Source of the DNA: Marvinbryantia formatexigens
GTDB lineage: Bacteria > Bacillota > Clostridia > Oscillospirales > Ruminococcaceae
Assembly (NCBI GenBank): GCA_021771035.1
Contig: JAETPU010000004.1
Location: forward strand, 62,001-126,000
Direction: 5' to 3'
DNA: 64,000 nucleotides
A program made the translations under genes and the position numbers. Shown piece after piece: positions 22,400 through 44,297 of the stretch (positions are counted from its first letter, which is position 1; every line of letters begins with the position of its first letter). The notes below the pieces were generated by a model, which ran no database searches, had not been told where the DNA came from, and saw nothing but the letters and a program-made list of their open reading frames with translations.

Positions 22400-23524
22400 T
22401 TACTTTTTCTGGTTAAAAATCTGCATAATATCGAAGAAGTCCTTGTCCCGCTCGGAGATAACCCCGCCTGCCGCGGTATTGCCGGCACCGGAAGCCGGAG
22501 CCTTGGAAGCCGCAGAGGAAGCCGAATTGGCAGCGCTATTGGGAATCGCGGCCTGGGCGGCACCCTCTTCAAAACCGGTGGCAATGACAGTGACCTGCAT
22601 TTCGTCCTTAAAGCTCTCATCAAAGGCGGCACCCCAGATGAGGTTCACATCCGGATGCGCCTGATCATGCACCATCGAGGAGGCGATATCGATTTCATCC
22701 AGGCTGATATCCGGAGAAGCCGTAATATTGATGATAACGCCCCGGGCCCCGCTGATAGACGTCTCCAGAAGCGGGCTGGAAATTGCCATTCTGGCCGCCT
22801 GCTCCGCCTTGTCCTTGCCCTGTGCGCGTCCCACGCCCATGTGCGCGTAGCCGGCATCCTTCATAATGGCAGTGACGTCCGCAAAGTCCAGGTTTACCAC
22901 GCCGGGGACATTGATCAAATCGGAAATACTCTGAACGCCCTGGCGCAGCACATCATCCGCGGCCTTAAAGGCATTGAGAAGTGTAATTTTCTGTTCTGAA
23001 ATCAGCTTTAGGCGCTCATTGGGGATCACCACCAGGGCATCCACATTTTCCTTGAGGGCCGCAACACCGGCCTCCGCCTGCTCCATTCTGCGTTTACCTT
23101 CAAAGATGAAGGGCTTTGTCACGATACCAATGGTAAGAATTCCCAGTTCCCGGGCAATCTCCGCCACCACCGGTGCGGCGCCTGTTCCGGTTCCGCCGCC
23201 CATACCGGCGGTAATAAACACCATCTGGGTTCCCTTGAGCGCGGCTGCAATCTCTTCCCGGCTCTCCTCAGCGGCCCGCTGGCCCTTTTCGGGAGATCCG
23301 CCCGCTCCGCGGCCCTTGGTGAGCTTGTCCCCAATTTGAATCTTCTGAGTGGCCCTGGAATGGAACAGCGCCTGCTGATCCGTATTGACAGAAATAAACT
23401 CCACGCTCTGCATTCCAGATTCGATCATCCGGTTGACTGCATTTCCGCCGCCGCCGCCAACGCCGGCGACTTTAATTGAAACTACTTGTTCTAAATCATT
23501 CTCCATCTGAAAGTTCATGAACAT
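22400..23524 (-). CDS. ftsZ: Cell division protein FtsZ
   Basis: Tubulin-like GTPase that forms the cytokinetic ring. 374 residues with the tubulin signature [10 protein letters not shown] near residue 112, the N-terminal [12 protein letters not shown] loop, and the synergy-loop NLDFADV. The C-terminus carries a disordered Ala/Ser-rich linker and a terminal conserved peptide ending [13 protein letters not shown] 23524 has GGGAGG 9 bases upstream. It follows murA(3')-ftsQ in the same direction, the usual end of a division and cell wall cluster. Confidence 0.99.
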
Positions 23525-23669: not shown

Positions 23670-24701
23670 TTATTCCCCCTGGGAGGATCTGGAAACATTT
23701 TCCTCATCCTCAGCGGGCTTTTCTTCCTCCTGATTGACGACGCTTTCGGGGAGGGTGATGTGTCCCGGCCGGGTGGAGATATTGGAGGGCGTTGTCAAAT
23801 CCACTGTTCCGCTGAAATTCTCCAATTCACCGGCCAGCAGGCTGGAAAAGCCCTTCATTTTATATTCCATCTCATTTTCAGAGCCGAACACCACCTTGAG
23901 CTTGTCCCCACAATAGGCGCAGACATTGTAGACATCCGTCAGGTCCACCGCCGTAAAGGTAATCCCCCCCTCATTGGCCGCGCACTCCAAAAGGCGCTCC
24001 AAGACCGCCAGCCTCTGGTATTGGGGATTGGCGCTCTCATCCTCCAGGTACTGGGGAATTTTATCCAGCACCTGCATCCCGCTTACATCCACCCCCAGCA
24101 CCTTGGGGATGAAGGCGTCCGGAGAATCGATTCCCGTCTCCAGCACCTTGCCGCTTGCGGAGAGGATGGTATAGCCGTTGTCGTCCCGCACCGCCGCCAC
24201 CGGGGTCTCCTGGGTAATGGCAATTTCCACGCCGGTGGGCAGATGGAAGCGGATGTTTACCTCCTCGATATAGGCATATTTCTCCTTGAGGCGGCTGGCA
24301 ATTTCCTCCTTGGGGATCTCAAACAGGTTTTGCTGCTGCTGAATGGAGGCTGTCTTCAAAATGCTTTCGGTTTCATAGCGGTCGTTGCCGGACACCGTGA
24401 CGGTCTCCACATTGAAAAACAGGCGCACCGTCAAAAAAATACCGCCTCCCACCACAAAGAGCAGTAAAATAACGGAGAACAGCGCGCGCTTTTTCTTACG
24501 CCTGCGCAAACGGCGCTGCTCATTCAAGCGGCGCGCCTGTTCCCTTCTGCGTCTTTCCAGTGTGGCATTAGCCGATTTTTTCCCCGGCGTCCTGCTGCCG
24601 GACTGCCTTCCCGCGCTCCCCTGAGAAGGGGTTCCCCGCCTGGGGGCAGAGGGCTGGGGCCTCTGCGGTTTCTTTTGGGATGTTCCTTTTTTTTGTGCCA
24701 T
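23670..24701 (-). CDS. ftsQ: Cell division protein FtsQ/DivIB
   Basis: Bitopic divisome protein, 343 residues. A long basic, low-complexity cytoplasmic tail (residues 1-85, many K, R, P and S), one membrane segment (about 86-107), a POTRA domain starting NVETVTVSGNDRYETESIL, and the FtsQ beta domain; the last 30 residues are acidic. ATG 24701 (MAQKKGTSQKK) lies 2 bases after the murA stop with GAGGGAG upstream. Its expression normally depends on transcripts from murA, so the disruption of murA directly upstream could matter for it. Confidence 0.93.
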   Translation of the reverse strand: MAQKKGTSQKKPQRPQPSAPRRGTPSQGSAGRQSGSRTPGKKSANATLERRRREQARRLNEQRRLRRRKKKRALFSVILLLFVVGGGIFLTVRLFFNVETVTVSGNDRYETESILKTASIQQQQNLFEIPKEEIASRLKEKYAYIEEVNIRFHLPTGVEIAITQETPVAAVRDDNGYTILSASGKVLETGIDSPDAFIPKVLGVDVSGMQVLDKIPQYLEDESANPQYQRLAVLERLLECAANEGGITFTAVDLTDVYNVCAYCGDKLKVVFGSENEMEYKMKGFSSLLAGELENFSGTVDLTTPSNISTRPGHITLPESVVNQEEEKPAEDEENVSRSSQGE

Positions 24702-24703
24702 GA

Positions 24704-25624
24704 CTACTCCCTCGTAATTTTCGCTCCCAACCGGGAAAGACTCTGCTCCAGCGCATCGTATCCCCTGTCGATATGTTTTAAATCCGTCAGCTGCGTGGTT
24801 CCCTGAGCAGCCAGCCCCGCTAAAACCAAGGCGGCGCCTCCCCGAAGATCCGTACTGCACACCTTGGCGCTGTGCAGCGTACCGACCCCTTCCACTACGG
24901 CAACACGGCCCTGAACCTTGATATTCGCACCCATACGGGCTAATTCTTCCACGTGCTTATAGCGGCTCTCGAAAATATTTTCCACAAATACACTGGTCCC
25001 CTTGGCTACAGTCGCCAGGGCCATCATGGGCGCCTGGGCATCGGTGGGGAACCCCGGATACGGCATTGTGCGCACTAAGTATAACGGCTTGAGCCTGCGG
25101 GGAGCCCATAGGCTTACACTGTCCCCATGTACCCGAATCCGGCACCCCATTTCCTCAAAGGCAGGGAGCACCGCGGTTAAATGCTGCTGCAGCGCCCGGT
25201 GCACCACAATATTTCCTCCGGTGATGGCCCCGGCCGCCAGATAGGTAGCCGCCACAATGCGGTCCGGCATCACCGTATAGCTGCACCCGGACAGCTCAGG
25301 GACTCCCTGAATGGCAATGGTGCTCTCCCCGGCCCCGCTCACCTTAGCGCCGCAGGCGTTGAGGAAATTCTGTAAATCCACAATCTCCGGCTCCCGGGCC
25401 GCATTATTGAGAATGGTTTCCCCCTGGGCGCAACAGGCTGTCAGCATCACATTCTGCGTTGCCCCCACACTGGGGAACGACAGGGAAATTTCCGTTCCAT
25501 ACAGTCCATCTTCACAGGAGCAGTTTAAGTACCCGTGATCCTCCGTGATTTTTACGCCCAGCTTCTTTAAGGCCGCCAGATGCAGATCAATGGGCCTGGG
25601 CCCCAATTCACAGCCACCGGGCTG
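24704..25624 (-). pseudogene. murA: 3' part of murA (UDP-GlcNAc 1-carboxyvinyltransferase), 5' part missing
   Basis: MurA makes the first committed peptidoglycan precursor and is normally 415-435 residues. Here only about 306 codons remain. They begin with SQPGGCELGPRPIDLHL, where the cysteine (TGT at 25610-25612) is the catalytic residue that binds phosphoenolpyruvate and fosfomycin. The first possible start is a TTG after this cysteine with no ribosome site. Upstream of SQPGG the frame runs into the tail of a serine recombinase gene whose stop codon TGA overlaps the murA codons for Cys and Glu. The remaining body is uninterrupted. A second intact murA elsewhere would be needed; Clostridia often have two. 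Confidence 0.85.
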
Positions 25625-27167
25625 CGAGCGGATATGGCGCCATGCCCAAAACCGGCGACTCCAGCACCACGCCGCCCAGCCTGGCGAGCGTCTCCCGTTG
25701 GGTCTGGGACAGCCCCGGCTCCCTTTGGCCGGTACACTCCCCCGGCAGGTATACCCTGCCCCCGCAAACCGCCAGGCGAAGCCAGCCGGCCCTCAGGCTG
25801 GCAGCGCTTATCTGGTCCAAAAGCTCCTGAAATCCAGGATTTTTGGGCCGCGGAGCCTCTGTTTGCTCCCGGAGCTGTTCCCGGCACTGTCCGAGCTGCC
25901 GCTGATATTCCCCGTACTTTTTCTCAAAGAGCTCCTGGGAAATCCTGCCTTGCAGCCTGTCCTCATAGATCTGTTCGAGAATCCTGTTAATGGAGCCCTC
26001 CCGCTCTTTCAGGCGCTCCGAAGCCGTCCGGACACCCTGAGAACGCCTTGAGAGCTCCCCGCATACCAATTCCCGGTTTTCTAACAGCAGTTCCCGCAGC
26101 CGGGCTGCAACTTTTCGGAGAACCGCCTCTTCCAGCACCCGGTGAGACAGGCAGCCCGACTCCCCGGCCGGCGCCAGCGGCCCCTGGCGGTGATAACGGG
26201 AGCACACATAGGCGGCCCTTCTCCCCTTACGGGTCCGCAGCACCATCGTGGATCCGCACCTGCCGCAGCGCAGCAGCCCGGACAGCGGACGCACCGTCCC
26301 CTGCCGGGAACGATGCGGGACGCTTCCCCGGCTGCGCAGGCGCTGCACCTGCTCAAAGAGCTCGTGGGGGACAATGGGGGCATGGTGATGCTCTAAAACC
26401 ACCCAATCCTCCGGAGGACGCTCTATCAGGTGTTTATCCTTAAAGCTGGCATTGGTGCGCCGGGCATACACCATGGTTCCCTCATACACCGGGTTTTGGA
26501 GAATCCGCCCGATATGCTGCCGGTTCCAAGCGCTGCAGGCCTTAGGCCTGAGCTGAACCTGAGACGGGGTTGGAATTCCCTGGTCTGTGAGCGCCCGGGC
26601 AATGTCGCTGCAGGGTTCCCCGGCGGCAAACCGCCTGAACACCTGGAGGACAATTCCCGCAAAATCCTCATCCGGCACTAAAAGGCCGTTCTCCCGGCGG
26701 TATCCAAAGGGGGCCCGGATCAAGAGCTGGCCGGTCTCCATCTTATGGCGCAAAACCCGTCGGATTTTCCGGCTGTCCTCCTTGGCCCGCTGTTCGTGGA
26801 ACCAGGCTAAAAGCGGAAAAAAATCCTCGCTGTACTCCTCGCTTTCAAAGAGCACCTGAACCCCAAGACGCTGCATCTGTTCGATAAAATTAAGGCTTTC
26901 CCGCAGGTTTCTTCCCAAACGGGAGGAATCTTTAAACACCAGCACATCAATTTCACGGCGCTGGGCCGCCCTGACAATGCTGTCAAACCTGGAAAAATCC
27001 GTACCGGATTTGTCATCGTCCAGGATGATTCCCACAATGTTATTCAGCTGGCGGCGGCGGCAAAAATCCAAGAGGATATCCCGCTGCGTTTCAATCCGCT
27101 CAAAGTTCTCCCCGTTTTCATCCCGGCTTTCCCGGCAGTAGAGAACCACCCGCCTTGCATCTTCCAT
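25608..27167 (-). CDS. Large serine recombinase inserted in murA
   Basis: 519-residue site-specific recombinase. N-terminal resolvase domain with VVLYCRESRDENGE (Ser nucleophile), VLVFKDSSRLGR; recombinase domain with APFGYRRENG and FAAGEPCSDIARALTDQGIPTP; zinc ribbon LLRCGRCGSTM with paired cysteines near YVCS and GCLSH; a coiled-coil region; short C-terminal end. ATG 27167 has GGAG 9 bases upstream. Its last codons and stop lie inside the murA reading frame, the arrangement expected when such an integrase sits at the very end of an integrated element. No other phage or conjugation gene accompanies it. Confidence 0.93.
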   Translation of the reverse strand: MEDARRVVLYCRESRDENGENFERIETQRDILLDFCRRRQLNNIVGIILDDDKSGTDFSRFDSIVRAAQRREIDVLVFKDSSRLGRNLRESLNFIEQMQRLGVQVLFESEEYSEDFFPLLAWFHEQRAKEDSRKIRRVLRHKMETGQLLIRAPFGYRRENGLLVPDEDFAGIVLQVFRRFAAGEPCSDIARALTDQGIPTPSQVQLRPKACSAWNRQHIGRILQNPVYEGTMVYARRTNASFKDKHLIERPPEDWVVLEHHHAPIVPHELFEQVQRLRSRGSVPHRSRQGTVRPLSGLLRCGRCGSTMVLRTRKGRRAAYVCSRYHRQGPLAPAGESGCLSHRVLEEAVLRKVAARLRELLLENRELVCGELSRRSQGVRTASERLKEREGSINRILEQIYEDRLQGRISQELFEKKYGEYQRQLGQCREQLREQTEAPRPKNPGFQELLDQISAASLRAGWLRLAVCGGRVYLPGECTGQREPGLSQTQRETLARLGGVVLESPVLGMAPYPLAARWL

Positions 27168-27287
27168 TGCAACCGGCTCCTTTCCTTTTACAGGCAAGGA
27201 AGGAAACACCAAGCCCGCCAGCCTTTGGGCGCCCACGGCGCGCCGCGGGACGGCGGATATCGTTTCCTCCACACCTGTTACTCAGTT

Positions 27288-27327
27288 AAAAAAAGATACG
27301 CCGGTCTCTGAGAAACCATGCGTATCT
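27288..27327 (-). terminator. Terminator upstream of the recombinase gene
   Basis: Leftward stem AGATACGC / GCGTATCT with an inner GGTTTCTC-AGAGACC pair, then TTTTTTT (27288-27294). It ends the TIGR04086 operon, and would also stop transcripts begun at the -10 that abuts it. Confidence 0.85.
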
Positions 27328-27336
27328 ATTATAGCA
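27328..27336 (-). promoter_or_regulatory. Extended -10 directly before the terminator hairpin
   Basis: Leftward TGC-TATAAT with no good -35. The predicted start would fall in the hairpin's first arm, so a transcript would begin with a terminator structure; it may be a gated promoter for the recombinase. Confidence 0.4.
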
Positions 27337-27359
27337 TAAAGACCCAAAAAGAAAAGAAA

Positions 27360-27563
27360 TTATCCTGGTTTTTTCTCATCCCGGCACAGATCACCATCAT
27401 TTTCCAAAAAATCCTGGACGATCAGCGCAATCAGTTCCCGCTTATGCTGTTCGAATTCCTGTGCTTTTCCATTCGTCCGGCAAAAATACACCGGCATTGG
27501 TTCCTCATCGCAGCCTGCGGCCTGTTCCCCGTTTCCAAATTTGGGGTCTCTTGTGGGGATCAT
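27360..27563 (-). CDS. Small hypothetical protein coupled to TIGR04086 gene
   Basis: A 67-residue acidic protein (MIPTRDPKFGNGEQ at the start, EFEQHKRELIALIVQDFL near the end). ATG 27563 overlaps the stop of the upstream gene (ATGA) and has GGGGGAG 8 bases upstream, strong evidence that it is translated. No membrane segment and no motif I can name. It is the last gene before the terminator at 27288. Confidence 0.65.
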   Translation of the reverse strand: MIPTRDPKFGNGEQAAGCDEEPMPVYFCRTNGKAQEFEQHKRELIALIVQDFLENDGDLCRDEKKPG

Positions 27564-28009
27564 GGACGGAACTCCCCCTTCGCGCGCTGGTTGACCCCAA
27601 TCACGCCCCCGATGGCGCATACTAGGAGAAGAATAATCAATTTGAGGATGTGAAAACCGCCCGCAAAGATACTTCCGGTACATACTGCCGCTAAAACCAG
27701 CAGAAAATAGTAGCACCCGCCGCAGAGAAATCCCAGCATCAGCCCCTGACGCCGCAGGCGCTTAGTGGTATACAGCGAACAGATAAAAGCTCCCAGCGCG
27801 GCAGCCAGAAGCGATAAGTGCTCGATGAGCGCATGGGGAAAGTCTGTGAGCACCAGGACTCCGGAAAAGAGAAGCAGCAGGCTTACCGTCACCGCGGCCC
27901 CTACCAAAAGCCCCACCGCCATCTCCCGGGGCGGGCTCATGGTTCTGTGGAAGGAGGCCGACGTATTGCGCGGCCTGGGCTGTGCGGGAGGTTTGCGTAA
28001 CGCCTTCAA
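27560..28009 (-). CDS. TIGR04086 family membrane protein
   Basis: 149-residue integral membrane protein of unknown function with four predicted segments (about 33-55, 60-80, 88-110, 115-137) and a basic N-terminus. The family is usually found beside yajC in Clostridia, as here. The start is uncertain: TTG 28009 lies in the T-run of the terminator hairpin just upstream, whose 3' arm GGGGGTG could serve as ribosome site; an ATG at 27940 (MSPPREM) is the alternative. The hairpin thus may control both termination and translation. Confidence 0.75.
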   Translation of the reverse strand: MKALRKPPAQPRPRNTSASFHRTMSPPREMAVGLLVGAAVTVSLLLLFSGVLVLTDFPHALIEHLSLLAAALGAFICSLYTTKRLRRQGLMLGFLCGGCYYFLLVLAAVCTGSIFAGGFHILKLIILLLVCAIGGVIGVNQRAKGEFRP

Positions 28010-28067
28010 AAAAACACCCCCTGTGAATGGAAAGTATCGCAATAATACAATCTATTCACAGGGGGTG
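28008..28067 (-). terminator. Terminator of yajC
   Basis: Leftward stem CACCCCCTGTGAAT / ATTCACAGGGGGTG (14 pairs) with a 25-base loop, followed by TTTTTTT. It overlaps the likely start of the TIGR04086 gene. Confidence 0.85.
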
Positions 28068-28096
28068 AAAAATAGTCGCCCAAAGAAACGGGAATG

Positions 28097-28429
28097 TTAT
28101 TTTTCCTCTGCGGGAGCGTCGTGCACGGTGTTGTTCTGAGCAACCGCCCAGCGGGCAATTCTCAGTTTGCTGCGGTCGCTGCCGGTTTCAATGACGATGT
28201 TGTCCTCTCTCAGGCTGACCACGCGGCCGATAATTCCGCCGGAGGTCACAACCTCATCGCCTACTTCCAGGCTTGCGCGCATTTTTTGCACCTGCTTTTC
28301 CTGCTTTTTCTGAGGACGAATCAGCAGAAAATAGAAGACCACCATGATCAGGACAATCGGAAGAAGCTGGACCAGGAGCACGACCCAGGAAGAGCCGCCG
28401 CTCTCTGCGGTTGTCAAAAGTTGTGTCAT
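28097..28429 (-). CDS. yajC: Preprotein translocase subunit YajC
   Basis: Small accessory protein of the SecDF-YajC complex in the cytoplasmic membrane, 110 residues. One membrane segment (about 16-36) directly followed by RPQKKQEKQVQKM, then the conserved LEVGDEVVTSGGIIGRVV. ATG 28429 (MTQLLTTAES) is used; GGAGG is 11 bases upstream. The track's longer TTG start overlaps this ribosome site. It follows tgt on the same strand, the classical tgt-yajC order. Confidence 0.93.
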   Translation of the reverse strand: MTQLLTTAESGGSSWVVLLVQLLPIVLIMVVFYFLLIRPQKKQEKQVQKMRASLEVGDEVVTSGGIIGRVVSLREDNIVIETGSDRSKLRIARWAVAQNNTVHDAPAEEK

Positions 28430-28512
28430 CAAATTGAGCACCTCCAAAAAAGTTAACAGTACCTATTATAGCGGTTTGTCCAGGGGATTGCAACCGCTTT
28501 TACCGCCGCCGG

Positions 28513-29643
28513 CTAAATTCTTGTGGACAGACGCTGGGAATACTCCGCCCTGAACTGTGCAAAACGGTTTTCGTCCAAAGCCAGGCGGATTTGTTCCAGC
28601 AGCGTGTTGTAAAAGTACAGGTTGTGTGCCACCGCCAGGCGCATCCCCAGCATTTCCTTGGCCTTAATCAGATGATGGAGATAGGCGCGGGAATGGCTGC
28701 GGCAGGTGGGACAATTGCAGCCGGGCTCGATTGGGGCGTCATCCCGGGCATATTTTGCATTATTCAGGTTACGGATTCCCTCCCAGGTAAACAGGTGCCC
28801 ATGGCGGGCGTTGCGGCTGGGCATTACGCAGTCGAACAGATCCACGCCCCGCCACACAGCCTCAATGATATTGGAGGGAGTTCCCACCCCCATGAGGTAC
28901 CGGGGCTTATCCTTGGGCATGTAGGGCTGCACTTCCTCAATGATGCGGTACATCTCCTCGGTGGGCTCCCCCACCGCCAGCCCGCCGATAGCGTAGCCGT
29001 CCAAATCCAAATCCGCTATCCGCTTCATGTGTTCGATGCGGATATCCTCATACACACAGCCCTGGTTGATGCCAAAGAGCATCTGGTGCGGATTAATGGT
29101 ATCCTCCAGGGAATTGAGCCGCTGCATCTCCTGCTTACAGCGGACCAGCCAGCGCACCGTGCGGTCGCAGGAGGTTTTGGCATAGTCCCGCTGGGAAGGG
29201 TTGGCAATACATTCATCAAAGGCCATGGCGATGGTGGAGCCCAGATTGGACTGGATCTGCATACTCTGCTCAGGGCCCATAAAGATTTTCCTGCCGTCAA
29301 TGTGGGACTGAAAGGTGACGCCTTCCTCCTTAATTTTCCGCAAACTCGCCAGAGAAAAGACCTGAAAGCCGCCGCTGTCGGTCAAAATGGGGCGATCCCA
29401 GTTCATAAAGCGGTGCAGGCCGCCCAACTCCTTAATGATCAAATCCCCGGGACGCAGGTGCAGATGATAGGTATTGCACAATTCCACCTGACAGTGCAGT
29501 TCTTTTAAATCTAAAGAGGAGATGCCCCCCTTGATGGCGGCGGCTGTTCCCACATTCATAAAGGCGGGCGTCTGAACGGTGCCGTGAACCGTGGTGAACT
29601 CCCCACGCCGGGCGTCTCCCTCCTGTTTGAGCAGCTGATACAT
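28513..29643 (-). CDS. tgt: tRNA-guanine transglycosylase
   Basis: Exchanges guanine-34 for preQ1 in tRNAs with GUN anticodons in queuosine synthesis. 376 residues: FMNVGTAAAIKG, the catalytic nucleophile region DRPILTDSGGFQVFSL, GGLAVGEP, and the zinc site CNCPTCRSHSRAYLHHL. The frame is open 54 codons further, but ATG 29643 (MYQLLKQEGD) with AAAGGA upstream is the normal start. A tandem pair of the promoter-like repeat (29751-29964) lies 108 bases upstream pointing at this gene. queA, the next enzyme of the pathway, is at 41.9 kb. Confidence 0.96.
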   Translation of the reverse strand: MYQLLKQEGDARRGEFTTVHGTVQTPAFMNVGTAAAIKGGISSLDLKELHCQVELCNTYHLHLRPGDLIIKELGGLHRFMNWDRPILTDSGGFQVFSLASLRKIKEEGVTFQSHIDGRKIFMGPEQSMQIQSNLGSTIAMAFDECIANPSQRDYAKTSCDRTVRWLVRCKQEMQRLNSLEDTINPHQMLFGINQGCVYEDIRIEHMKRIADLDLDGYAIGGLAVGEPTEEMYRIIEEVQPYMPKDKPRYLMGVGTPSNIIEAVWRGVDLFDCVMPSRNARHGHLFTWEGIRNLNNAKYARDDAPIEPGCNCPTCRSHSRAYLHHLIKAKEMLGMRLAVAHNLYFYNTLLEQIRLALDENRFAQFRAEYSQRLSTRI

Positions 29644-29750
29644 GGTTTTCGGTTTCCTTTCCTGATAGAGATACTTTTTATTGGAGCCATCCCCGCGTCT
29701 TTCGCGGCAGATTTCATTCCACAAGAATACAATAAAGTCTAAGAGAACCC

Positions 29751-29848
29751 GGGATCTGTTGCGGTTTGGCCTTGCCAAACACCGGCTATGCCTTTGAGCC
29801 GGCAAGCGAAACTCCCAGATATTCGCGTTCTACGCGAATATTGTACCA
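29751..29848 (-). repeat. Dispersed hairpin/promoter repeat, copy B1
   Basis: First unit of a tandem pair (period 115). Leftward: TGG-TACAAT (29840-29848), hairpin ATATTCGCGT / ACGCGAATAT, then GCCGGC / ..CCGGC stem, then TTTGGC / GCCAAA, ending at GATCCC. Points at tgt. Confidence 0.8.
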
Positions 29849-29865
29849 TAATTTTAGAACTAACC

Positions 29866-29962
29866 GGGACGTTTTGCGGTTCAGCGGCAGCTGAATGCCG
29901 GTCGCTGTTTGACCGGCAAGCGAAACTCCTAGATGTTCACGCCCCGCGTGAACATTATACCA
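29866..29962 (-). repeat. Dispersed hairpin/promoter repeat, copy B2
   Basis: Second unit. Leftward TGG-TATAAT (29954-29962), hairpin ATGTTCACGC / GCGTGAACAT with loop CCC, then CCGGTC / GACCGG, then TTCAGC / GCTGAA, ending CGTCCCGG. All three stems differ from B1 by paired substitutions. Confidence 0.82.
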
Positions 29963-30061
29963 CACATTTTTTCCCCGGGCAAACTCCGCCGCCCAAGGAA
30001 TCCCGCACCCCAATGAGGGTATCCTGATTATAAAAAAGCGCCATGCCGGCGAAAAGATCTG

Positions 30062-30100
30062 AAAAAACGCTTGCTTTTTCAGTCGTTTTTGGTTATGACG
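30062..30100 (+). promoter_or_regulatory. Possible promoter of the rsgA leader
   Basis: TTGCTT, 17 bases, TATGAC around 30071-30099, overlapping a CTGAAAAA / TTTTTCAG hairpin. Weak match; included because a transcript must start before the leader ORF. Confidence 0.3.
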
Positions 30101-30147
30101 AAGGGGAATTCTCTGAAACAATCGGAGCTGGAAAGGAGATAAAGTAT

Positions 30148-30189
30148 ATGTTATCCCGTGTTGTGAAGGTGGTTTTCTTCAAAAAGTAA
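30148..30189 (+). CDS. 13-codon leader ORF of rsgA
   Basis: ATG 30148 preceded by AAAGGAG (9 bases) encodes MLSRVVKVVFFKK and stops at TAA. The excellent ribosome site on such a short frame, and the two terminator hairpins that follow before rsgA, suggest a leader peptide whose translation controls read-through, as in inducible ribosome-drug resistance genes. The peptide itself matches nothing I know. Confidence 0.5.
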   Translation: MLSRVVKVVFFKK

Positions 30190-30290
30190 ATAACCGGATC
30201 CTGCATCGGCCTCCGCTGATATAAAAGCGGGTTCTGTAGGCTCCTGAAACCCTTTCGTGAATACTGTCGCGTAGCATTACGCAGCTGCAG

Positions 30291-30314
30291 GACACGTCTG
30301 GCGTGTCTTTTTTT
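30291..30314 (+). terminator. Attenuator terminator 1 in the rsgA leader
   Basis: Stem GACACG / CGTGTC with loop TCTGG followed by TTTTTTT. Just upstream lie small hairpins (GCGTA / TACGC, GCAGCTGC) that could form alternatives. Confidence 0.65.
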
Positions 30315-30351
30315 GCGCCCTTTTTGCGCAGCATAAACACGACAGAGCCCT

Positions 30352-30394
30352 CCCGCGGAGACAGGCATGAAGGTGCTGTTTCCGCGGGATTTTT
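30352..30394 (+). terminator. Attenuator terminator 2 in the rsgA leader
   Basis: Stem CCCGCGGA.ACAG / CTGT.TCCGCGGG followed by ATTTTTG. Lies 90 bases before rsgA. A second short frame (ATG 30434, 33 codons, GGAG upstream) follows and overlaps the rsgA start. Confidence 0.6.
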
Positions 30395-30485
30395 GCGTCT
30401 TTTTGAAGAAAACCGGAATGAAGAAAGGAGAGTATGAAATTGAATCAAACGATACTGTACCATCGCTTATTGGAGGCACTAAACT

Positions 30486-31919
30486 ATGACAATCCTCGAT
30501 TATGGCTTCGACCCCAAAACCGTTACCCAAAATGATCCCGGAATCCCGGCCCGGATTACGGCGGTGCACCGGGGACGGTATGAAATTGTCTGCGACGCCG
30601 GGCAGGGCTTTGCCCGTCTGAAAACCGGCGCCTACCGGACAGGCAGCAGCATGATTCCAACCGCCGGAGATTTTGTCCTGTTGGACTGGCAGCCAAATTC
30701 AGACAGCCGCATCCTGAAAACACTGCCCCGCAAGACCTTTCTTTCCCGTGCGGATCCCACCTATGGCGGACAGCGGGAACAGGCAATCGCCGCAAACTTC
30801 GACACGGTGTTTCTCCTTCAGGCGCTGGATCAACGGTTCAGCCTCCATCGGCTGGAACGGTGCCTGGCGCTGGTTTTACAGTCGGGTGCATCTCCGGTGT
30901 TTATCCTGACCAAAGCCGACGCTGCCCAGGACTGTGCGCCCCAGGTGCGCGCCGTCCAGGCAATGGCCTGTTCAGCGCCGGTACACACTGTCAGCGCCAG
31001 AACCGGCGCGGGGCTGGACGCTCTTTCCCGATATCTGGCGCCCGCAAAGACCATTGTGCTCCTGGGCGCTTCCGGTGCGGGAAAATCCACCCTGGTGAAT
31101 GCCCTTGCCCGCCGGGAGATCATGCAGACGGGACAAATCAGGGAAAAGGACGGCCGGGGCAGGCATACCACCACAGGCCGCCAGCTGATTCTTCTGGAAA
31201 ATGGCGCCATCCTCATGGATACCCCCGGGATCCGGGAACTGGGCCTGTGGGAAACTCAAGAAGGAATCGCTGAGAGTTTCCCGGATATCCAGCAGTACCT
31301 GGGACAGTGTAAATTCCGGGATTGCCGCCACCAGGGAGAACCTGGCTGCGCCGTCAGCCGGGCCATTCGGCAGGGGGAGCTGTCCCCCGAGCGCTGGGAA
31401 AGCTATCAAAAATTGATGCGCCAGGTAAACTGCGGCGGAAAGAAGCCCAAGTATCAAAGTTCAAAAGGAGCTGTGCAGGAGAACGAAAACGTTTCCCGAA
31501 AGCAGAAAGCCTCAGAGCCCGACTACCGGATTTCTCCCTGTGAAAAAAGCTTTACCTGCCGTGTGTGCGGCGCTCTTGTAACGCCTGAGGACGCAGGAAG
31601 CGCACACCGCAACCACTGCCCGCACTGCCTGTGCAGCCTTCACGTGGATAACCAGCCCGGCGACCGGGCGTCCCTATGCCGGGGGATTATGGAGCCTATC
31701 GGCGTATGGGTGCGCAAAAACGGGGAATGGGCCATCATCCACCGCTGCCGTTCCTGCGGAAAGCTCATCTCAAACCGCATCGCCGCTGACGACAACTCCG
31801 CCCTGCTCCTCTCCATTGCCGTGAAGCCCCTGGCCTCCCCTCCGTTTCCCCTGTGGCAGGACACTGGCGCTGAAAAGCAGCCCGCCTCCGACACCCACGG
31901 AGCGGCCCCGAAGCTGTAA
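30486..31919 (+). CDS. rsgA: RsgA GTPase fused to an RNHCP zinc domain
   Basis: 477 residues in two parts. Residues 1-315 are RsgA, the circularly permuted GTPase of late 30S subunit assembly: OB-fold start, FILTKADAA (G4), GASGAGKSTLVNAL (G1), DTPGIREL (G3), and the zinc-finger end CKFRDCRHQGEPGC. Residues about 345-445 are an RNHCP domain: FTCRVCGALV, AHRNHCPHCLCSLHVD and CRSCGKL, with cysteine pairs for zinc. RsgA is normally about 300 residues and RNHCP proteins stand alone. ATG 30486 has GGAGG 9 bases upstream. The leader before it suggests control by translation stress. Confidence 0.9.
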   Translation: MTILDYGFDPKTVTQNDPGIPARITAVHRGRYEIVCDAGQGFARLKTGAYRTGSSMIPTAGDFVLLDWQPNSDSRILKTLPRKTFLSRADPTYGGQREQAIAANFDTVFLLQALDQRFSLHRLERCLALVLQSGASPVFILTKADAAQDCAPQVRAVQAMACSAPVHTVSARTGAGLDALSRYLAPAKTIVLLGASGAGKSTLVNALARREIMQTGQIREKDGRGRHTTTGRQLILLENGAILMDTPGIRELGLWETQEGIAESFPDIQQYLGQCKFRDCRHQGEPGCAVSRAIRQGELSPERWESYQKLMRQVNCGGKKPKYQSSKGAVQENENVSRKQKASEPDYRISPCEKSFTCRVCGALVTPEDAGSAHRNHCPHCLCSLHVDNQPGDRASLCRGIMEPIGVWVRKNGEWAIIHRCRSCGKLISNRIAADDNSALLLSIAVKPLASPPFPLWQDTGAEKQPASDTHGAAPKL

Positions 31920-32060
31920 GCCGCCAAAAATTTTCCGTGTGTCACCAGCCGGCTGGCAAAACGCCTTTTGGGGCATCCAATCCCCGCAGGCATGTACGCG
32001 CTTGCCGCCGGCCTGTCCTTAAAATCCGGCGATCTCCAGTTGATTTCAGGAACAACCGGC

Positions 32061-32110
32061 AAACCCCCGCTGCCTGGCTATCAATACAGGCAGCGGGGGT
32101 TCTCTTTTTT
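32061..32110 (+). terminator. Terminator of rsgA
   Basis: Stem ACCCCCGCTGCCTG / CAGGCAGCGGGGGT with a 10-base loop, then TCTCTTTTTT. Between convergent genes; may also serve phoR in the other direction. Confidence 0.9.
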
Positions 32111-32200
32111 GATGATAGGACAATCTTAAATACTCTGCGGCCGCCGGGCTGCGAGGGTCAGTTTCCATGGGCCCCCGCAAACTGGTACAGACAATCGGCC

Positions 32201-33862
32201 CTACTGCTTCCAGATAAGGGTAAACACACTCCCCTGACCCGGCACACTTTCCAGAGCAACCTGAGCGCCCAGGTAGGCGGCGCCGTGCTTGACGATGGAC
32301 AGGCCCAGCCCGGTTCCGCCGATCTCCTTGGAATGGCTCTTATCCACCCGGTAGAACCGCTCAAAAATACGCTTGCGGTTGGCTTCGTCAATCCCGATTC
32401 CTGTATCCCGGACCCGCAGGCAGACAGAATCCTTTTCGCTTTGCACTGAGACGGTGACATTGCCTCCCTTACGGTTGTACTTCACCGCATTGTCACACAA
32501 ATTGTAGCAGACTTCCTCCAAAATGGGCCTAACGGCGGACAATACTACGTGTTCTCCCTCCAAATGCAGGCTGACATTGGCCTTTTGGGCCGGGGCCTCC
32601 ATCTGCCCTAAGATTTTCTGCGCCATCTCAAACAGATCCACCGGTTCCTTCTCATAGGGCAGCTGGCCCTCGTCCAGCTGGGAAATTTTAATGACGTCCT
32701 CCACCAACCGGATGAGCCGCTGGGCCTCCTCAAAGATACGGGAGGCAAACCGGCGGATATCCCGGGATTCCACCATACCGTCCTGCATAATCTCAGCAAA
32801 GCCGGAGATGGAGGTGAGCGGCGTTTTTAATTCATGGGAGACATTGGCGGTAAACTCCCGGCGCAGCTCCTCCCGCAGGGTCTTTTCCGTCACATCCACC
32901 AGCAGGATTACCGCTCCCGCAGGCGCCCCCTCCCGCAGGACCGGATTGGCGATCACCTGGCAGTAGCTCTGCCCAATCTGCAGGGTTACGGTTTCGTGTT
33001 CCCCATCCAGCGCCCGTTCCACAGCGTGCTGAAACGGTTCAGTCCGGTTGAGGGTGAGCACATTGTGGTTTTGGGCCGGCTGGGCGTGAAGCAGCCTGAG
33101 AGCGCTGGAATTGCAGGAGAGCAGCTGGGCGCGGCGGTCAATGACCAAAAGCCCCTCCCGCATATTCTCAGTGATAATGGAGAATTCCTCCTGCTGGCGT
33201 TTGGCCAGAGCCAGCTGCTTCTCAATGGTTTTTTTCTGACGGTTGATTTTTCCCAAAAGCGGCGCAATCTCGTCATAGGCCTCGTTGGACTGGGGATCCT
33301 CCAAATTCAGTTCATTGATGGGCGCCGTTATTTTTTTGGACACCCTGGAGGCAAAGATCCCCGCCAGGGCCAGCATCACAAAGAAAATAATGAGAATAGG
33401 CTGGATAAGCCCGCCTAAAATTGCCATGGCTGTAAATTGCGTGCTGGAAACCCGCAGTACCCTTGAACCGGACAGCCGAACCGCATAGTATACCGTCTTT
33501 TCCGACAGAGTGCGGGAATACCGGGTGGATTCCCCTGTTCCGTCAAGCAGCGCCTGGCGCACCTCCTGGCGGTCCTTATGGTTATCCATGGACTCCTCGT
33601 CCACCTTGCTGTCATATAAAACAGAACCATCCGCCGCAATCAGGGTGATGCGCTGGGTCTGCTGGGCCACTCCCGGCAGCTGGGTAAAATAATCGGTTCC
33701 CTGCGTCTCCACAGCCGCCGCCAGGTAATTGGCCTCATTTCTCAGCTGCTCCCGGGTTTGCTGCCCAAAATACTGGTATAGAATTTCCATCACCAGGAAC
33801 AGCCCAACCGTTAAAACCAACGCGGACACCAGGACAATGGAACGAAAAATTCGCTTTGTCAT
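32201..33862 (-). CDS. phoR: Phosphate sensor histidine kinase PhoR
   Basis: 553-residue kinase. Membrane segment (about 8-30), extracytoplasmic domain, second segment (about 145-170), HAMP region (SKKITAPINELN), PAS domain (ITENMREGLLVIDRRAQ), H-box FTANVSHELKTPLTSISGFAE, N-box CDNAVKYNRKGG, G-boxes DTGIGIDEANRKR and GTGLGLSIVKH. This is the PhoR/ResE layout, and the setting between phoP and the pst genes makes PhoR the likely identity. ATG 33862 overlaps the phoP stop (ATGA). Confidence 0.92.
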   Translation of the reverse strand: MTKRIFRSIVLVSALVLTVGLFLVMEILYQYFGQQTREQLRNEANYLAAAVETQGTDYFTQLPGVAQQTQRITLIAADGSVLYDSKVDEESMDNHKDRQEVRQALLDGTGESTRYSRTLSEKTVYYAVRLSGSRVLRVSSTQFTAMAILGGLIQPILIIFFVMLALAGIFASRVSKKITAPINELNLEDPQSNEAYDEIAPLLGKINRQKKTIEKQLALAKRQQEEFSIITENMREGLLVIDRRAQLLSCNSSALRLLHAQPAQNHNVLTLNRTEPFQHAVERALDGEHETVTLQIGQSYCQVIANPVLREGAPAGAVILLVDVTEKTLREELRREFTANVSHELKTPLTSISGFAEIMQDGMVESRDIRRFASRIFEEAQRLIRLVEDVIKISQLDEGQLPYEKEPVDLFEMAQKILGQMEAPAQKANVSLHLEGEHVVLSAVRPILEEVCYNLCDNAVKYNRKGGNVTVSVQSEKDSVCLRVRDTGIGIDEANRKRIFERFYRVDKSHSKEIGGTGLGLSIVKHGAAYLGAQVALESVPGQGSVFTLIWKQ

Positions 33863-34536
33863 TCGGGCATTCCTCCCATTTTATAGCCGATTCCCCGCAC
33901 CGTCTGCACATAGTCCCCGGCCGGCCCCAGCTTCTGCCTGAGCGTGCGGATATGCACATCCACTGTGCGGCTCTCTCCGTCGAACTCGTACCCCCAAATC
34001 CGGTCCAGAAGCTGCGAACGGGAAAATACCACACCGGGCTGCCCCAGCATACAGCAAAGCAGCTCATATTCCTTGAGGGTAAGGGACACATCCCTGCCAT
34101 CCACCTGAACCAGGTGCCGGGACGGGCATACATACAGGCAGCCAAGCCGGTACTCCTCCACCTGGCCGGACTGTCCGCTGCGGCGCAATAACGCCCGGAT
34201 GCGGGAGAGCAGCTCCATCATACGGAAGGGCTTCGGAATATAGTCGTCGGCGCCGGAATCCAGTCCAAGCACCGTATCGTACTCGCTTCCCTTGGCTGTC
34301 AGCATGATAACCGGCAGCTTGCCCGTAAGTGCCGAGCTGCGCAGCTTTTTGAGAATGCTCAGGCCGTCCTCCTCGGGCAGCATAATATCGAGAAGCACCA
34401 GATCCGGAACCTGCGCGCGCACCGCTGTCCAAAACCCGGAGGGACGCGAAAAGCCCTGGGCCTGCATCCCCTGGCTGTTCAGGGTATAGATGATAAGCTC
34501 CCGGATGCTGTCGTCATCCTCCAAAAGATAAATCAC
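33859..34536 (-). CDS. phoP: Phosphate response regulator PhoP
   Basis: OmpR-family regulator, 225 residues. Acidic pair YLLEDDDSI, phospho-acceptor LVLLDIMLPEEDG, LTAKG, PKPFRMMELLSRI; winged helix LTLKEYELLCCML to TVRGIGYKM. The start is GTG 34536 with AGGGGAG 8 bases upstream. It should control pstS through the TTAACA-like repeats at 39303-39330. Upstream, at 34773-34874, a copy of the promoter-like repeat points at this gene. Confidence 0.93.
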   Translation of the reverse strand: MIYLLEDDDSIRELIIYTLNSQGMQAQGFSRPSGFWTAVRAQVPDLVLLDIMLPEEDGLSILKKLRSSALTGKLPVIMLTAKGSEYDTVLGLDSGADDYIPKPFRMMELLSRIRALLRRSGQSGQVEEYRLGCLYVCPSRHLVQVDGRDVSLTLKEYELLCCMLGQPGVVFSRSQLLDRIWGYEFDGESRTVDVHIRTLRQKLGPAGDYVQTVRGIGYKMGGMPE

Positions 34537-34718
34537 ACCTAGTTCTCCCCTTCCTGGGTACTTTCCAATCATGTTAACTGAGAAACCAAATTCAGGCCGG
34601 CTATCCCGTACCTGTTAAACGGCTGCAACCATATTCGGCTTTTGGGCAGGGGCATTTCTCCCCCACAGCCTGCCGTTCAAAGCTCAACAGCCGCTCCTGC
34701 GGGCCGGCAGGCAAGGCT

Positions 34719-34755
34719 TTCAGATATTGCGTTTACACGTATATCGTTTCACAAC
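34719..34755 (-). repeat. Degenerate remnant of the repeat, copy C0
   Basis: CAGATATTGCGTTTACACGTATATC followed by GTTTCACAACAAAGCCTGAACCATACC corresponds to the end of a repeat unit: the hairpin ATAT..GCGT / ACGT..ATATC is imperfect and the -10 has lost TAYAMT form (described in parts). Suggests that locus C was once a tandem pair. Confidence 0.5.
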
Positions 34756-34772
34756 AAAGCCTGAACCATACC

Positions 34773-34874
34773 GGGATGTTTTGCGCTTTGGCTTTGCCTT
34801 CGGGCCGGTGGGCGAACCCCCCCAATCATCTTCGATGATTGCATATTCACGCTCCGCGTGAATATTGTATCACA
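34773..34874 (-). repeat. Dispersed hairpin/promoter repeat, copy C
   Basis: Leftward TGA-TACAAT (34864-34872), hairpin ATATTCACGC / GCGTGAATAT with loop TCC, then an extra hairpin CAATCATC / GATGATTG not found in other copies, then a shortened CCGG stem and TTTGGC. Points at phoPR. The rest of 34537-34946 shows nothing else. Confidence 0.75.
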
Positions 34875-34946
34875 ACCTGCCGCCCATGCGCCAGAGGGGA
34901 CGATACAGCCGCAGAGCCGCCGGCGGTTTTTTTAGGCTGTCAGGCA

Positions 34947-35609
34947 TTATTCCCCCGGCTGGTGCTCGTTATTCTGATGGATGCCGGTGATGGAGTATTC
35001 CACCCACTCGGCGATATTCACCGCATGGTCGGCAATCCGCTCAAAGTATTTCGCCGCCATCAGCAAATCGATGGACATTCCGGCGTCCTCATCCTGATGG
35101 AAAATCAGCTGGGTAAGCTTTTCCCGCACTTCCAAAAACAGAGCGTCCACCTTGTCGTCCTCCCGGATAATCCGGTAGGCCATGTCCAAATCCGCCCGGA
35201 CAAAGGCGTCCACGCTGTCAGTCACCATTTTTACCGCGCTAAAGGCCATCTCATGGATGGGAACCTTTTGCAAAAGAGTGCTCCCCGCCAGGTTCGGGGC
35301 CAATTCCGCGATATCCCCGGCCTGATCCCCAATGCGTTCCATATCGGAGATCATGCGCAGCGCAGCCGAAATCGTCCGCAGATCCCGGGCCACAGGCTGC
35401 TGCTGTAAAAACAGGCGCATGCACAGGTTCTCCACGTCGTGTTCCTTCTGATCGATCTCGGTATCCAGCACAAACACCTGGTTTATCAGGCCCTCTTCCT
35501 CGTTTTTTAACGCCTGGGCCGAAAGGGCGATGGCCTGTTCGCACAGGCTGCCCATTTTAATCAGCTCTACGTGCAGCTGCTCCAGCTGACGGTCAAACTG
35601 TTTTCTCAT
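34947..35609 (-). CDS. phoU: Phosphate transport regulator PhoU
   Basis: 220-residue all-helical protein that links the Pst transporter with PhoR and restrains the regulon. Two PhoU repeats are visible, each ending with the metal-binding motif: ALRMISDMERIGDQAGDIAEL (first, in part MERIGDQAGDIA) and YFERIADHAVNIAEW. The start ATG 35609 (MRKQFDRQL) is preceded by GGAGG at 13 bases; the open frame reaches 43 codons further. Encoded directly after pstB in the same operon. Confidence 0.95.
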   Translation of the reverse strand: MRKQFDRQLEQLHVELIKMGSLCEQAIALSAQALKNEEEGLINQVFVLDTEIDQKEHDVENLCMRLFLQQQPVARDLRTISAALRMISDMERIGDQAGDIAELAPNLAGSTLLQKVPIHEMAFSAVKMVTDSVDAFVRADLDMAYRIIREDDKVDALFLEVREKLTQLIFHQDEDAGMSIDLLMAAKYFERIADHAVNIAEWVEYSITGIHQNNEHQPGE

Positions 35610-35661
35610 ATCAGTATTCCAGCCTCCTGTATCAAGATTTTGGGTCCGGTGCGCTGCGGGC

Positions 35662-36423
35662 TTATCCAAACCGTCCTGTAATATAGTCCTCGGTGCGTTT
35701 ATCCTTGGGTACGCTGAACATCTGCTCGGTGTCCCCATACTCGATGACCTCTCCCAAGAGGAAAAAGGCCGTTTTATCGGAAATCCGCGCCGCCTGCTGC
35801 ATATTGTGCGTCACGATGATGATAGTATAATCCTGCTTGAGCTGGGCGGCAAGCTCCTCAATTTTAGAGGTGGAGATGGGATCCAGGGCGCTGGTGGGTT
35901 CATCCATTAAAAGAACCTGCGGCTGAACCGCCAGGGCCCGGGCAATGCACAGGCGCTGCTGCTGGCCGCCGGAGAGCCCCAGGGCGCTGCGCTTGAGGCG
36001 ATCCTTGACCTCGTCCCAGATAGCGGCCCGGCGCAGGGAGGTTTCCACAAGCTCATCCAGTTTTGCCCTGGAGCGAATCCCCTGCAGGCGGGGGCCATAG
36101 GCCACATTGTCGTAGATGCTCTTGGGGAACGGGTTGGGCTGCTGGAACACCATACCCACGCGCTGGCGCAGGGCAATGGCGTCCATCTGCTTATAGATAT
36201 CCACGCCGTCCAGGCACACGCTGCCGGTGATTTTTACGTTATCCTCCAGATCGTTCATCCGGTTGAGCGTCTTTAAAAAGGTGGATTTTCCGCAGCCGGA
36301 CGGGCCAATCAGCGCTGTGATTTGATGGCTGGGGATGGATAAATTCACAGTTTTCAAAGCCTGGAACTGGCCATAGTACAAATTCAGATCGGTGATTTCA
36401 AATTTCTTCTGAGTCTCTTTCAT
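35662..36423 (-). CDS. pstB: Phosphate ABC transporter ATPase PstB
   Basis: ATPase of the high-affinity phosphate importer, 253 residues, standard length. Walker [10 protein letters not shown], the PstB-typical [11 protein letters not shown], signature [15 protein letters not shown], Walker [14 protein letters not shown], and [16 protein letters not shown] 36423 follows the pstA stop by one base; the GGAGG ribosome site lies inside pstA, 14 bases away. Confidence 0.97.
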
Positions 36424-36424
36424 G

Positions 36425-37306
36425 CTACCGATGTTCTCCTCCCATCTTTCGATCCAGATGACGGCTGAGTATTCTTGCGCCGATACTGAAGGCGAAAACC
36501 ACGATCAGCAAAACGGCTGAGGACAGATTGGCTATCTGAGCGGCGTTGGGCGCCACCGCCTCTGTTCGCGAGGCCCAGATATGCAGAGCCAGGGTTTCAC
36601 CGGGGCGGAAGGGATTGAGCGGACAGGTGGACGATGCCAGATTCCAGTTTCCCCAGTTGATATCGGTACTCATTCCCGCGGTATACAAAAGGGCTGCCGC
36701 CTCTCCGAACACCCGTCCCGCAGCCAGGATGAGCCCGGTCATAATCCTGGGAAGGCACGCCGGGAGCAGGACATGGACAATGCTCTGCCAGCGGGTGGCG
36801 CCCAGCCCCAGGCTCCCCTGCAGATACCCGGCGGGGAGAGAACGCAGAGCATCCTGAGTTGTGGTTACCAAAAAGGGCAGATTCAAAATGGATACCGCCA
36901 AAGCGCCGGAAAACAGGTTCCATTTGGCACCGGTGAGAACGATAAACACAAGGTATCCGAAGAGCCCCACCACAATGGAGGGCAGCGAGGAGAGCGTCTC
37001 AATGCAGATACGCAGGAAGTGGATAAACTTTCCCTGCCCGGCATACTGGGCCATATAGATTCCCGCAGCCACCCCCAGGGGCACGCTCATCATCAGGGAG
37101 AGAACCACCAGGTATACCGTATTGAACAGCTGGTTGCCGATCCCCTGGCGGCTGAAGCTGAGAAGCGATGGGGTAAACCCTGTAAAGCCCTTTATGATAA
37201 CCGTCAGGGCAAACGCCAGAAGCAGCAGAAGAAAAAATCCCGCCACCGCACAGAATACAATGGTCATCAGGCGGTCAGCCAGCTTTGCGCGTGCGAACGT
37301 GTTCAT
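36425..37306 (-). CDS. pstA: Phosphate ABC transporter permease PstA
   Basis: Inner-membrane permease, 293 residues, six predicted segments and the conserved cytoplasmic loop [19 protein letters not shown] 37306 is used (MNTFARAKL), nine codons inside the longest frame; GGAGG is 11 bases before it. It overlaps the end of pstC by 32 bases, so the two are translationally coupled. Confidence 0.95.
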
Positions 37307-38204
37307 CCTTTGGGGCACCTCCTTTTCTGGCAATCAGATGGATGATAAAAATAAAGAGAAGAGAGATGAGAAACAAGAGCAGCGCCATCGTCCACAGGGC
37401 GGTGTTGTATTCCCCGCCCTCCATAGCGCCTCCCATATCGGAGGCGATGGCGGCAGTCAGGTTATTGGTGGGCGACAGCAGCGATTTGGGGTAGGCCCTG
37501 GTTTTCCCGATGACCATGGCCACTGCCAGCGCCTCTCCGAAGGCGCGGGCCAGCCCCAGCACAATTCCGGTGAGCACACCGGGCTTTGCGGCGGGCAGAA
37601 CCACCTGGCGGATGACCTGCCATCGGGTGGCGCCCAAGCCGAACGCGGCCTTGCGGTAATCCCTGGGGACACTGCTCAGGGCATCCGTTGCGACGCTGGT
37701 AATGGTGGGAAATATCATCACTGCCAGCACAATCCCGGCTGCCAGCACGGAATACCCATGGGAAAGCCCGAACAGCTTTTTAATGGCGGGAACCAGGATG
37801 GTAAGCCCCATCCAGCCATAGATAATCGATGGAATTCCCACAAACAATTCCACGGCCGGACGAAACAGGCGCTCCCCCCACTTGGGGGCAATTTCCGAGA
37901 GAAAAATCGCGGTGGCCAGGCTCAGCGGAGCGGCAATCAGCAGCGCCAAAGCACAGGTGGAGATGGAGCCGAAGATGTAGATGGCGGCGCCCACCTTTCC
38001 GCCGCCCGCAGAGGTATCCGCCGGCGACCACTGGGAGGAGAAAAAGAATTCTCCAATGCTGTGCCCATACGTGGTAAAGGTGCCCGAACCTTTATAGATA
38101 AGAAACGCGCCAATACTGAGGGTCAGGAGAATCACGGCAATCCCGCAGGCGGTCACAATACCGCGCCCCAGCTGTTCGCTCCAGAACCTTTTATAGGATT
38201 TCAT
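37275..38204 (-). CDS. pstC: Phosphate ABC transporter permease PstC
   Basis: Second permease of the importer, 309 residues, six predicted membrane segments, with GEFFFSSQWSP in the first periplasmic-side loop and the coupling motif LGATRWQVIRQVVLPAA. ATG 38204 with AGGAAG upstream. A hairpin in the pstS-pstC gap (38302-38330) may lower its expression relative to pstS, as seen in other pst operons. Confidence 0.95.
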   Translation of the reverse strand: MKSYKRFWSEQLGRGIVTACGIAVILLTLSIGAFLIYKGSGTFTTYGHSIGEFFFSSQWSPADTSAGGGKVGAAIYIFGSISTCALALLIAAPLSLATAIFLSEIAPKWGERLFRPAVELFVGIPSIIYGWMGLTILVPAIKKLFGLSHGYSVLAAGIVLAVMIFPTITSVATDALSSVPRDYRKAAFGLGATRWQVIRQVVLPAAKPGVLTGIVLGLARAFGEALAVAMVIGKTRAYPKSLLSPTNNLTAAIASDMGGAMEGGEYNTALWTMALLLFLISLLFIFIIHLIARKGGAPKDEHVRTRKAG

Positions 38205-38301
38205 AATAGGACAACTTCCTTTCTGGAATTTGGACCGGCGAAAGCATCATCCAGGCTGCACCTGAAAAGCATTCCTGAATCCGCAGCCCGCTGCCGCGAA
38301 A

Positions 38302-38330
38302 GGGGCCGGACAGACACACTGCCCGGCCCC
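38302..38330 (-). terminator. Intercistronic attenuating hairpin pstS-pstC
   Basis: Leftward GGGGCCGG / CCGGCCCC with a 13-base loop and only TTTCGC after it, so probably a partial terminator or an RNA-stability element. Confidence 0.5.
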
Positions 38331-38347
38331 CCCACGAAACGAAGCGC

Positions 38348-39229: not shown

Positions 39230-39264
39230 ATTCTCTTCTCTTCCTTTCTTTTTGGTACACGTTC

Positions 39265-39270
39265 AGTATA
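39265..39270 (-). promoter_or_regulatory. -10 of the pst operon
   Basis: Leftward TATACT with no matching -35, as for a PhoP-activated promoter. Confidence 0.5.
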
Positions 39271-39302
39271 AAAAGAAAAGGTAAAATACAGAATCCTTCC
39301 TT

Positions 39303-39330
39303 TGTTAAATATAGGTTAAGTATTTTACAA
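39303..39330 (-). promoter_or_regulatory. Pho box upstream of pstS
   Basis: Leftward TTGTAA (39325-39330), TTAACC (39314-39319), TTAACA (39303-39308), exactly 11 bases apart: the TT(A/T)ACA direct-repeat pattern bound by PhoP in Firmicutes. A further TTAACATTTTACA lies near 39380-39400. Confidence 0.75.
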
Positions 39331-39560
39331 ACCCTCTCATCCATCAAAATTCCCGCCGGCGTCGACGCCCCCGGCACCTTTTTCATTTGTAAAATGTTAA
39401 GCGGCTCATTCTGATTTTACACACTCCCGCCATTTTGGCTTATGCTGCCTTCCGGCGCCGCCCAAGCCGGTACCCGCACTCCGCCGCAGTACAGCAGCGT
39501 TTCCAGGCATTACAGGGGTATTTCAGCTCCTGCCCCGGCGGGAAAGGCCGGGATACCGGC

Positions 39561-39589: not shown

Positions 39590-39596
39590 AGTCGCC

Positions 39597-41770: not shown

Positions 41771-41776
41771 ATTTTT

Positions 41777-44290: not shown

Positions 44291-44297
44291 CCACATC

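Follow-up and report, generated by a model that had tools for sequence, protein, structure and literature searches.

The dcw murA is split within its active-site loop

The window, the whole 64,000-nucleotide stretch analysed here, corresponds to positions 62001-126000 of contig C62 in a 3.27-Mb draft genome of 66 contigs (G000). On its minus strand lie ftsZ (22400..23524), assigned by synteny and 73-81% identical to its relatives, and ftsQ/divIB (23670..24702), which synteny with intact relatives identifies as the native downstream neighbour of murA. They are preceded by the 3' half of murA (24704..25621, minus strand, att core to stop), which carries an EPSP_synthase domain and matches TIGR01072 only over profile positions 112-416 (395.8 bits). 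The first TTG-initiated ORF of this half spans 24704-25606, and homology extends to the core at 25614-25621. The half abuts a gene for a 519-aa large serine recombinase, here called R (25608..27167, minus strand), with Resolvase, Recombinase and Zn-ribbon domains identified by Pfam and by alignment with relatives. As the original prediction described, and as direct reading and Pfam analysis bear out, the TGA of the recombinase gene falls in the TGT GAA (Cys-Glu) codons of murA; the last codons and the stop of R are made of murA DNA.

A profile search of the genome located the 5' half of murA (TIGR01072 positions 2-119) at C62:126638-127018. The statement that it lies nowhere in the window was correct, but the window stops only about 640 bp short of it; it shares contig and strand with the 3' half and ends in the expected second attachment half with the same core. 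The halves are arranged head to tail in the same orientation, with 39,054 bp between the two cores. Upstream of the 5' half are murG, ftsW, mraY, murF, murE, a PBP gene, mraW and mraZ, the dcw cluster, named by reading and synteny; genes were called with a simple hexamer-based program, which makes the neighbour lists approximate. In intact relatives murG-murA-ftsQ-ftsZ is contiguous and tgt is far off; in G000, then, one dcw murA is interrupted between the Gly codons of the active-site loop. The earlier suggestion of integration followed by deletion or inversion does not match the sequence, which retains all of murA in two co-oriented halves; a chromosomal inversion in G000 was rejected because of this co-orientation. 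A search with TIGR01072 further revealed a second, complete murA at C16:90952-92199, the other intact copy whose presence the original prediction had left to be checked.

The spacer between murG and the murA 5' half comprises about 1.6 kb of non-coding DNA (C62:127018-128619; L003 1900-3350) and contains several diverged inverted-repeat copies, GAATTGAAAC..GTTTCAATTCTC and GGAAGTTTTGG..CCAAAACTTC.

Hybrid attachment sites in direct orientation

Direct reading and junction alignment showed that the hybrid site at the 3' half contains an 8-bp core, CCCGGTGG, at 25614..25621 (minus strand), and that the 5' half ends in the same 8 bp at C62:126675-126682. The core occupies Pro-Gly-Gly codons, in line with the crossover at or just before the active-site loop that was first proposed. 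The attP-type inner arm GGCGCCATATCCGCTCGCAG (25622..25643, minus strand) has its partner, CTGCGAAGCAAAATGGCGCC, at the other junction beyond the window. Joined, the inner arms give GGCGCCATATCCGCTCGCAGCCCGGTGGCTGCGAAGCAAAATGGCGCC, an imperfect, attP-like palindrome with a symmetry of 17/25, reached by 0.2% of shuffles. The corresponding values were 16/25 (0.4% of shuffles) for G051 and 13/25 (not significant) for G212, and the palindrome centre is identical in all three genomes.

Joining the outer arms regenerates the empty site. Done in silico, this yielded an in-frame 417-aa MurA with its catalytic loop, containing GAKNS and PGGCELGPRP, and thus the equivalents of Lys22-Asn23, Cys115 and Arg120; in-frame joining gave a full MurA in 11 genomes. 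The att sites are direct and the halves head to tail in all five cases where both lie on one contig, which is the arrangement that excision needs. Inverted sites, the mark of an invertible phase-variable switch, were seen in none of these five.

The interval is ordinary chromosome

The 39.05 kb between the halves (25622..64000, with the last 674 bp outside the window) contain, besides R and a 67-aa ORF, ordinary genes, in agreement with the ordinary neighbours originally noted beyond the recombinase. These include yajC (28097..28447, minus strand, TIGR00739), tgt (28513..29724, minus strand, TIGR00430), the sole copy in the genome, queA (41881..42915, plus strand, TIGR00113), dapB, dapA and asd (47628..50477, minus strand; TIGR00036, TIGR00674 and TIGR01296), rpsR, ssb and rpsF (51269..52353, minus strand; TIGR00165, TIGR00621 and TIGR00166; S18, Ssb and S6), together with pstB and galU. 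An RlmA-like rRNA methyltransferase gene (63689..64000, plus strand; Pfam on L003:525-1373) is cut by the window end; it is convergent with the murA 5' half, which its 3' end faces. Some interval genes also adjoin murA, in a different order, in a genome of the same genus (G001), indicating that local shuffling of this region is common. At 30486-31919 (plus strand), a single reading frame encodes an RsgA GTPase with an RNHCP zinc domain at its C terminus.

The recombinase and its upstream region

Alignment of R with four relatives showed that the catalytic residue, Ser14 in a RES motif, is invariant. The nearest relative among solved structures is SprA/YokA. The best NCBIfam match, XisF, scored 78.7 bits against a cut-off of 375 bits, and assignment of R as XisF was rejected accordingly; a phage origin was also rejected, as no relative was found in viral contigs.

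Upstream of R is the 67-aa ORF (27360..27563, minus strand), for which a family search returned no match. Small ORFs occur upstream of R in most relatives, and by its position this one is a candidate recombination directionality factor. By direct reading, an intrinsic-terminator-like hairpin (GATACGC...GCGTATC) with a T run separates the small ORF from R (27287..27326, minus strand). It is preceded by a TATAAT-like sequence, and might attenuate transcription of R.

Recurrence of the split together with R

Comparison with other genomes, most of them drafts, showed that 12 genomes from nine families, G000 included, carry a murA divided at these Gly codons; 11 of the 12 have R or a close relative of it, and all have a second intact murA. 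Among 394 genomes of the order, close relatives of R (E < 1e-60) were found only in one genus of another family, g51 (G051, G212 and G273); in the other genera of that family the dcw murA is intact wherever seen. A class-level profile search of 391 genomes identified 23 carriers of R, nine of which were tested further. In eight of these murA is again interrupted in the active-site loop (G683, G749, G745, G600, G812, G697, G460 and the finished, single-contig G470); G755 carries R with a murA that is not split. G263, a genome 85% complete, is the only case of a split murA with no R detected. The association between split murA and R gave a Fisher p of about 1e-11, the number of intact R-negative genomes in the table being approximate.

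The surroundings of the halves vary. G051 and G212 retain the order radical-SAM gene, R, murA 3' half, ftsQ; the 5' half adjoins ylxM-ffh in G051 and G263, and lies near rpsP-trmD genes in G212. R is inside the interval in G000, G683 and G749 and outside it in G470; G697, G745, G600 and G460 have it either downstream of the 3' half or on a separate contig. The G470 interval (12.3 kb) contains polA and coaE but not the recombinase, which lies 81 kb away, and that of G697 (48.6 kb) contains pheS and pheT. The intervals of G000, G470 and G697 hold core genes, and exogenous DNA of the prophage or island type is found only in G683/G749; the G683 interval is a real mobile element with a Mob_Pre relaxase, a transposase and a reverse transcriptase. 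Relatives of R often occupy a conserved locus away from murA, shared between several families and lying beside an rpoN-like gene and/or a phosphoglycerate mutase gene, for which the mutase domain was found. In some lineages R has turned into a host gene at a different site. In G600 and G812 (L118 and L119) a spoIVA homologue follows a relative of R on the same strand, about 2.6 kb downstream.

Two further candidates were discarded. The apparent split of murA in G001 consists of two contigs that end in the loop and overlap by about 76 bp; the G001 murA is probably intact and the apparent split an artefact of assembly. The contigs (C106 and C71; L041 and L042) end exactly in the active-site loop and their overlap has mismatches; a mixed population is a less probable reading. 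A duplicated murA start in G005 was a scaffold-gap artefact.

Both halves of murA are under purifying selection

Codon comparison of the 5' halves of G051 and G263 gave dN 0.126 and dS 0.615, and that of the 3' halves of G051 and G212 gave dN 0.26 and dS 1.7, with dS near saturation in the more distant pairs. R is also under purifying selection. In G212 a TAA directly precedes the 3' half and no ATG, GTG or TTG occurs ahead of codon 66, so that codons 1-65 are untranslatable while the gene is split; these codons nonetheless gave pN 0.21 and pS 0.73 (p 2e-11). Purifying selection thus acts on both halves, including codons that cannot be translated in the split state, a pattern that favours rejoining over either a relic or a split enzyme. 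The argument assumes a split older than the divergence of the species compared, an assumption that their shared neighbours support. A start codon ahead of the loop is also missing in G683/G749, G745 and G812. Possible start codons near the loop are present in the 3' halves of G000 (TTG), G470, G697, G600 and G460, and from its TTG the G000 3' half could possibly give a separate C-terminal murA product.

A SigK-like promoter upstream of the dcw murA

A SigK-like promoter, AC-N16/17-CATANNNT, was found upstream of the dcw murA in 15 of 16 intact relatives, compared with controls of 1/22 second-copy murA genes, 2/131 genes of the home contig and 20/373 genes of relatives (5%). SigK promoters of C. 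difficile have AC at -35 and share their -10 with SigE (PMC3789822). Among split genes, the 5' half follows such a promoter in G212 and in seven of the eight class members; G000 has the site 280 bp ahead of its 5' half, and G051/G263 carry TC in place of AC at -35. All four of these genomes (G000, G051, G212 and G263) have spoIVA, identifying them as spore formers. The small ORF-R pair has SigE-like sites ahead of it in G051, G212 and G273, and these are significant in this genus only; no SigE-like promoter was found for R in G000, and this candidate was dropped. In C. difficile the recombinase may be constitutive, with the directionality factor alone under SigE (PMC5025042). In B. subtilis the second MurA contributes to engulfment (PMC9600426), which makes an extra supply of MurA during sporulation plausible. 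The original description of the disrupted enzyme as the fosfomycin target holds for MurA generally and carries little weight here, given the second intact murA and a likely role in spore formation rather than in drug response.

Proposed mechanism and alternatives

We favour, with a probability of roughly three in four, a skin-like, developmentally programmed rearrangement that rejoins murA, most likely in the mother cell, and excises 39 kb including essential genes. Restoration of murA on excision had been one of the options originally put forward, and the direct att halves, purifying selection, recurrence across families and mother-cell-type promoter all point to it. In the proposed pathway, R and a directionality factor, perhaps the product of the small ORF beside it, would recombine the two hybrid att sites, restoring murA with its PGGCELGPRP active-site loop and releasing 39 kb of ordinary chromosome, essential genes included, as a circle. 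This would most likely take place in the mother cell during sporulation; the restored MurA would there supply peptidoglycan for the cortex, and the second intact murA would serve growth. The SigK-like promoter in split and intact relatives points to this cell type, and with essential genes on the circle, excision would be tolerable only in a cell without progeny. For such a cell their loss would be no obstacle, which would explain intervals that are filled with core genes and vary between lineages. Neither a joined murA nor a circle was seen in assembled sequences.

Alternatively, an element could have inserted in a dispensable second murA and decayed to its recombinase, after which rearrangements parted the halves and left the dcw murA a pseudogene. 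The intact second murA in every case, the loss of element genes from the intervals and the fact that one half can have moved off from murG fit such a history, which we nevertheless consider unlikely, since both halves and R are under purifying selection between split species, the 5' half retains its promoter, and the halves remain head to tail with direct sites. Reversible joining in growing cells, as phase variation or population heterogeneity not specific to the mother cell, is less likely still: a recombinase with attL and attR in place could act at any time, and the yin element of C. botulinum is excised in part of the population (PMC10747680), but a growing cell losing essential genes (ssb, S6 and S18 in G000, polA in G470, pheST in G697) would die unless it retained the circle, and the SigK-like promoter indicates the late mother cell.

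Selection on both halves, a cut in a flexible surface loop and the possible starts near the loop in five genomes would also suit halves that are translated apart and assemble into a working MurA with no rearrangement. We regard this as very improbable overall, and for several lineages it is ruled out: the conserved loop residues of G212, G683, G749, G745 and G812 have no ATG, GTG or TTG before them, and in G212 the loop codons are conserved despite the stop directly before them. The persistence of the att arms and R would moreover go unexplained. A misjoin at 25.6 kb, which the original prediction had itself raised, might be suspected in a draft of 66 contigs, with the 39 kb placed between the halves in error; this has a negligible probability, because both breakpoints are exact att half-sites with a shared core and matching palindrome arms, and eleven other genomes, the single-contig G470 among them, have the same split.

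Relation to known intervening elements

The closest parallel is the skin element of sigK, excised by SpoIVCA in B. subtilis and by CD1231 with the directionality factor CD1234 in C. difficile (PMC5025042). In both systems a gene is split in frame by the hybrid att sites of a large serine recombinase, a mother-cell gene in the case of skin and probably also in that of murA; excision of skin requires a small protein and is confined to the terminal mother cell, as proposed here. The present case differs in that the target is murA rather than a sigma factor, the interval consists of core chromosome and includes essential genes, several relatives have R outside it, and excision is deduced from sequence. 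SPbeta, whose SprA/SprB restore spsM in the mother cell (PMC4191935), likewise has direct att repeats and rebuilds a spore-envelope gene there, and SprA/YokA is nearest to R, but SPbeta is a phage, whereas no phage genes are present here and the target and organism differ. The gin element in gerE (PMC5595907) and vfbin in spoVFB, vrin in spoVR and yin in yabG (PMC10747680) are non-phage or degenerate elements removed from sporulation genes by serine recombinases; they are reported as exogenous islands in single species or strains, unlike the murA split, which spans nine families with native DNA between the halves.

Outside sporulation, the serine recombinase XisF restores a gene in a terminally differentiated cell by removing the heterocyst fdxN element; the gene and cell type are different, and R falls far below the XisF cut-off. 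We do not file the murA interval as a typical intervening element, because in most lineages examined it is not exogenous DNA. The targets of sporulation rearrangements in the literature are sigK, spsM, spoVFB, spoVR, gerE and yabG, and no published murA rearrangement was found in the open-access literature, most subscription papers lying outside the scope of the search.

Known sporulation rearrangements are prophages or islands that occupy sporulation genes in few species; at murA the same codons are split in nine families and the element is mostly gone. It is somewhat more probable than the opposite that this represents long-standing programmed DNA elimination in many clostridia, in which a recombinase, passed on in several families as a host gene apart from murA with no mobile element left, would delete tens of kilobases of essential chromosome in the terminal mother cell and make a sporulation-specific MurA. 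Soma-like and germ-like genomes would then differ by core genes. Should joining be confirmed, the mother cell would be discarding essential genes deliberately and the dcw murA would be an enzyme of sporulation; living genomes, from G683 to G000 to G470, would then show how a mobile element turned step by step into a developmental switch.

The murA element of G683 (C9, L124, 4630-7019) carries the reverse transcriptase with a 122-aa ORF and an FGE-sulfatase-like gene, which we take to be the usual make-up of a diversity-generating retroelement. Within the G749 interval (C26, L125, 13587-13877) is a second, degenerate murA 5' fragment with a stop codon inside, as if left by a second insertion or a duplication.
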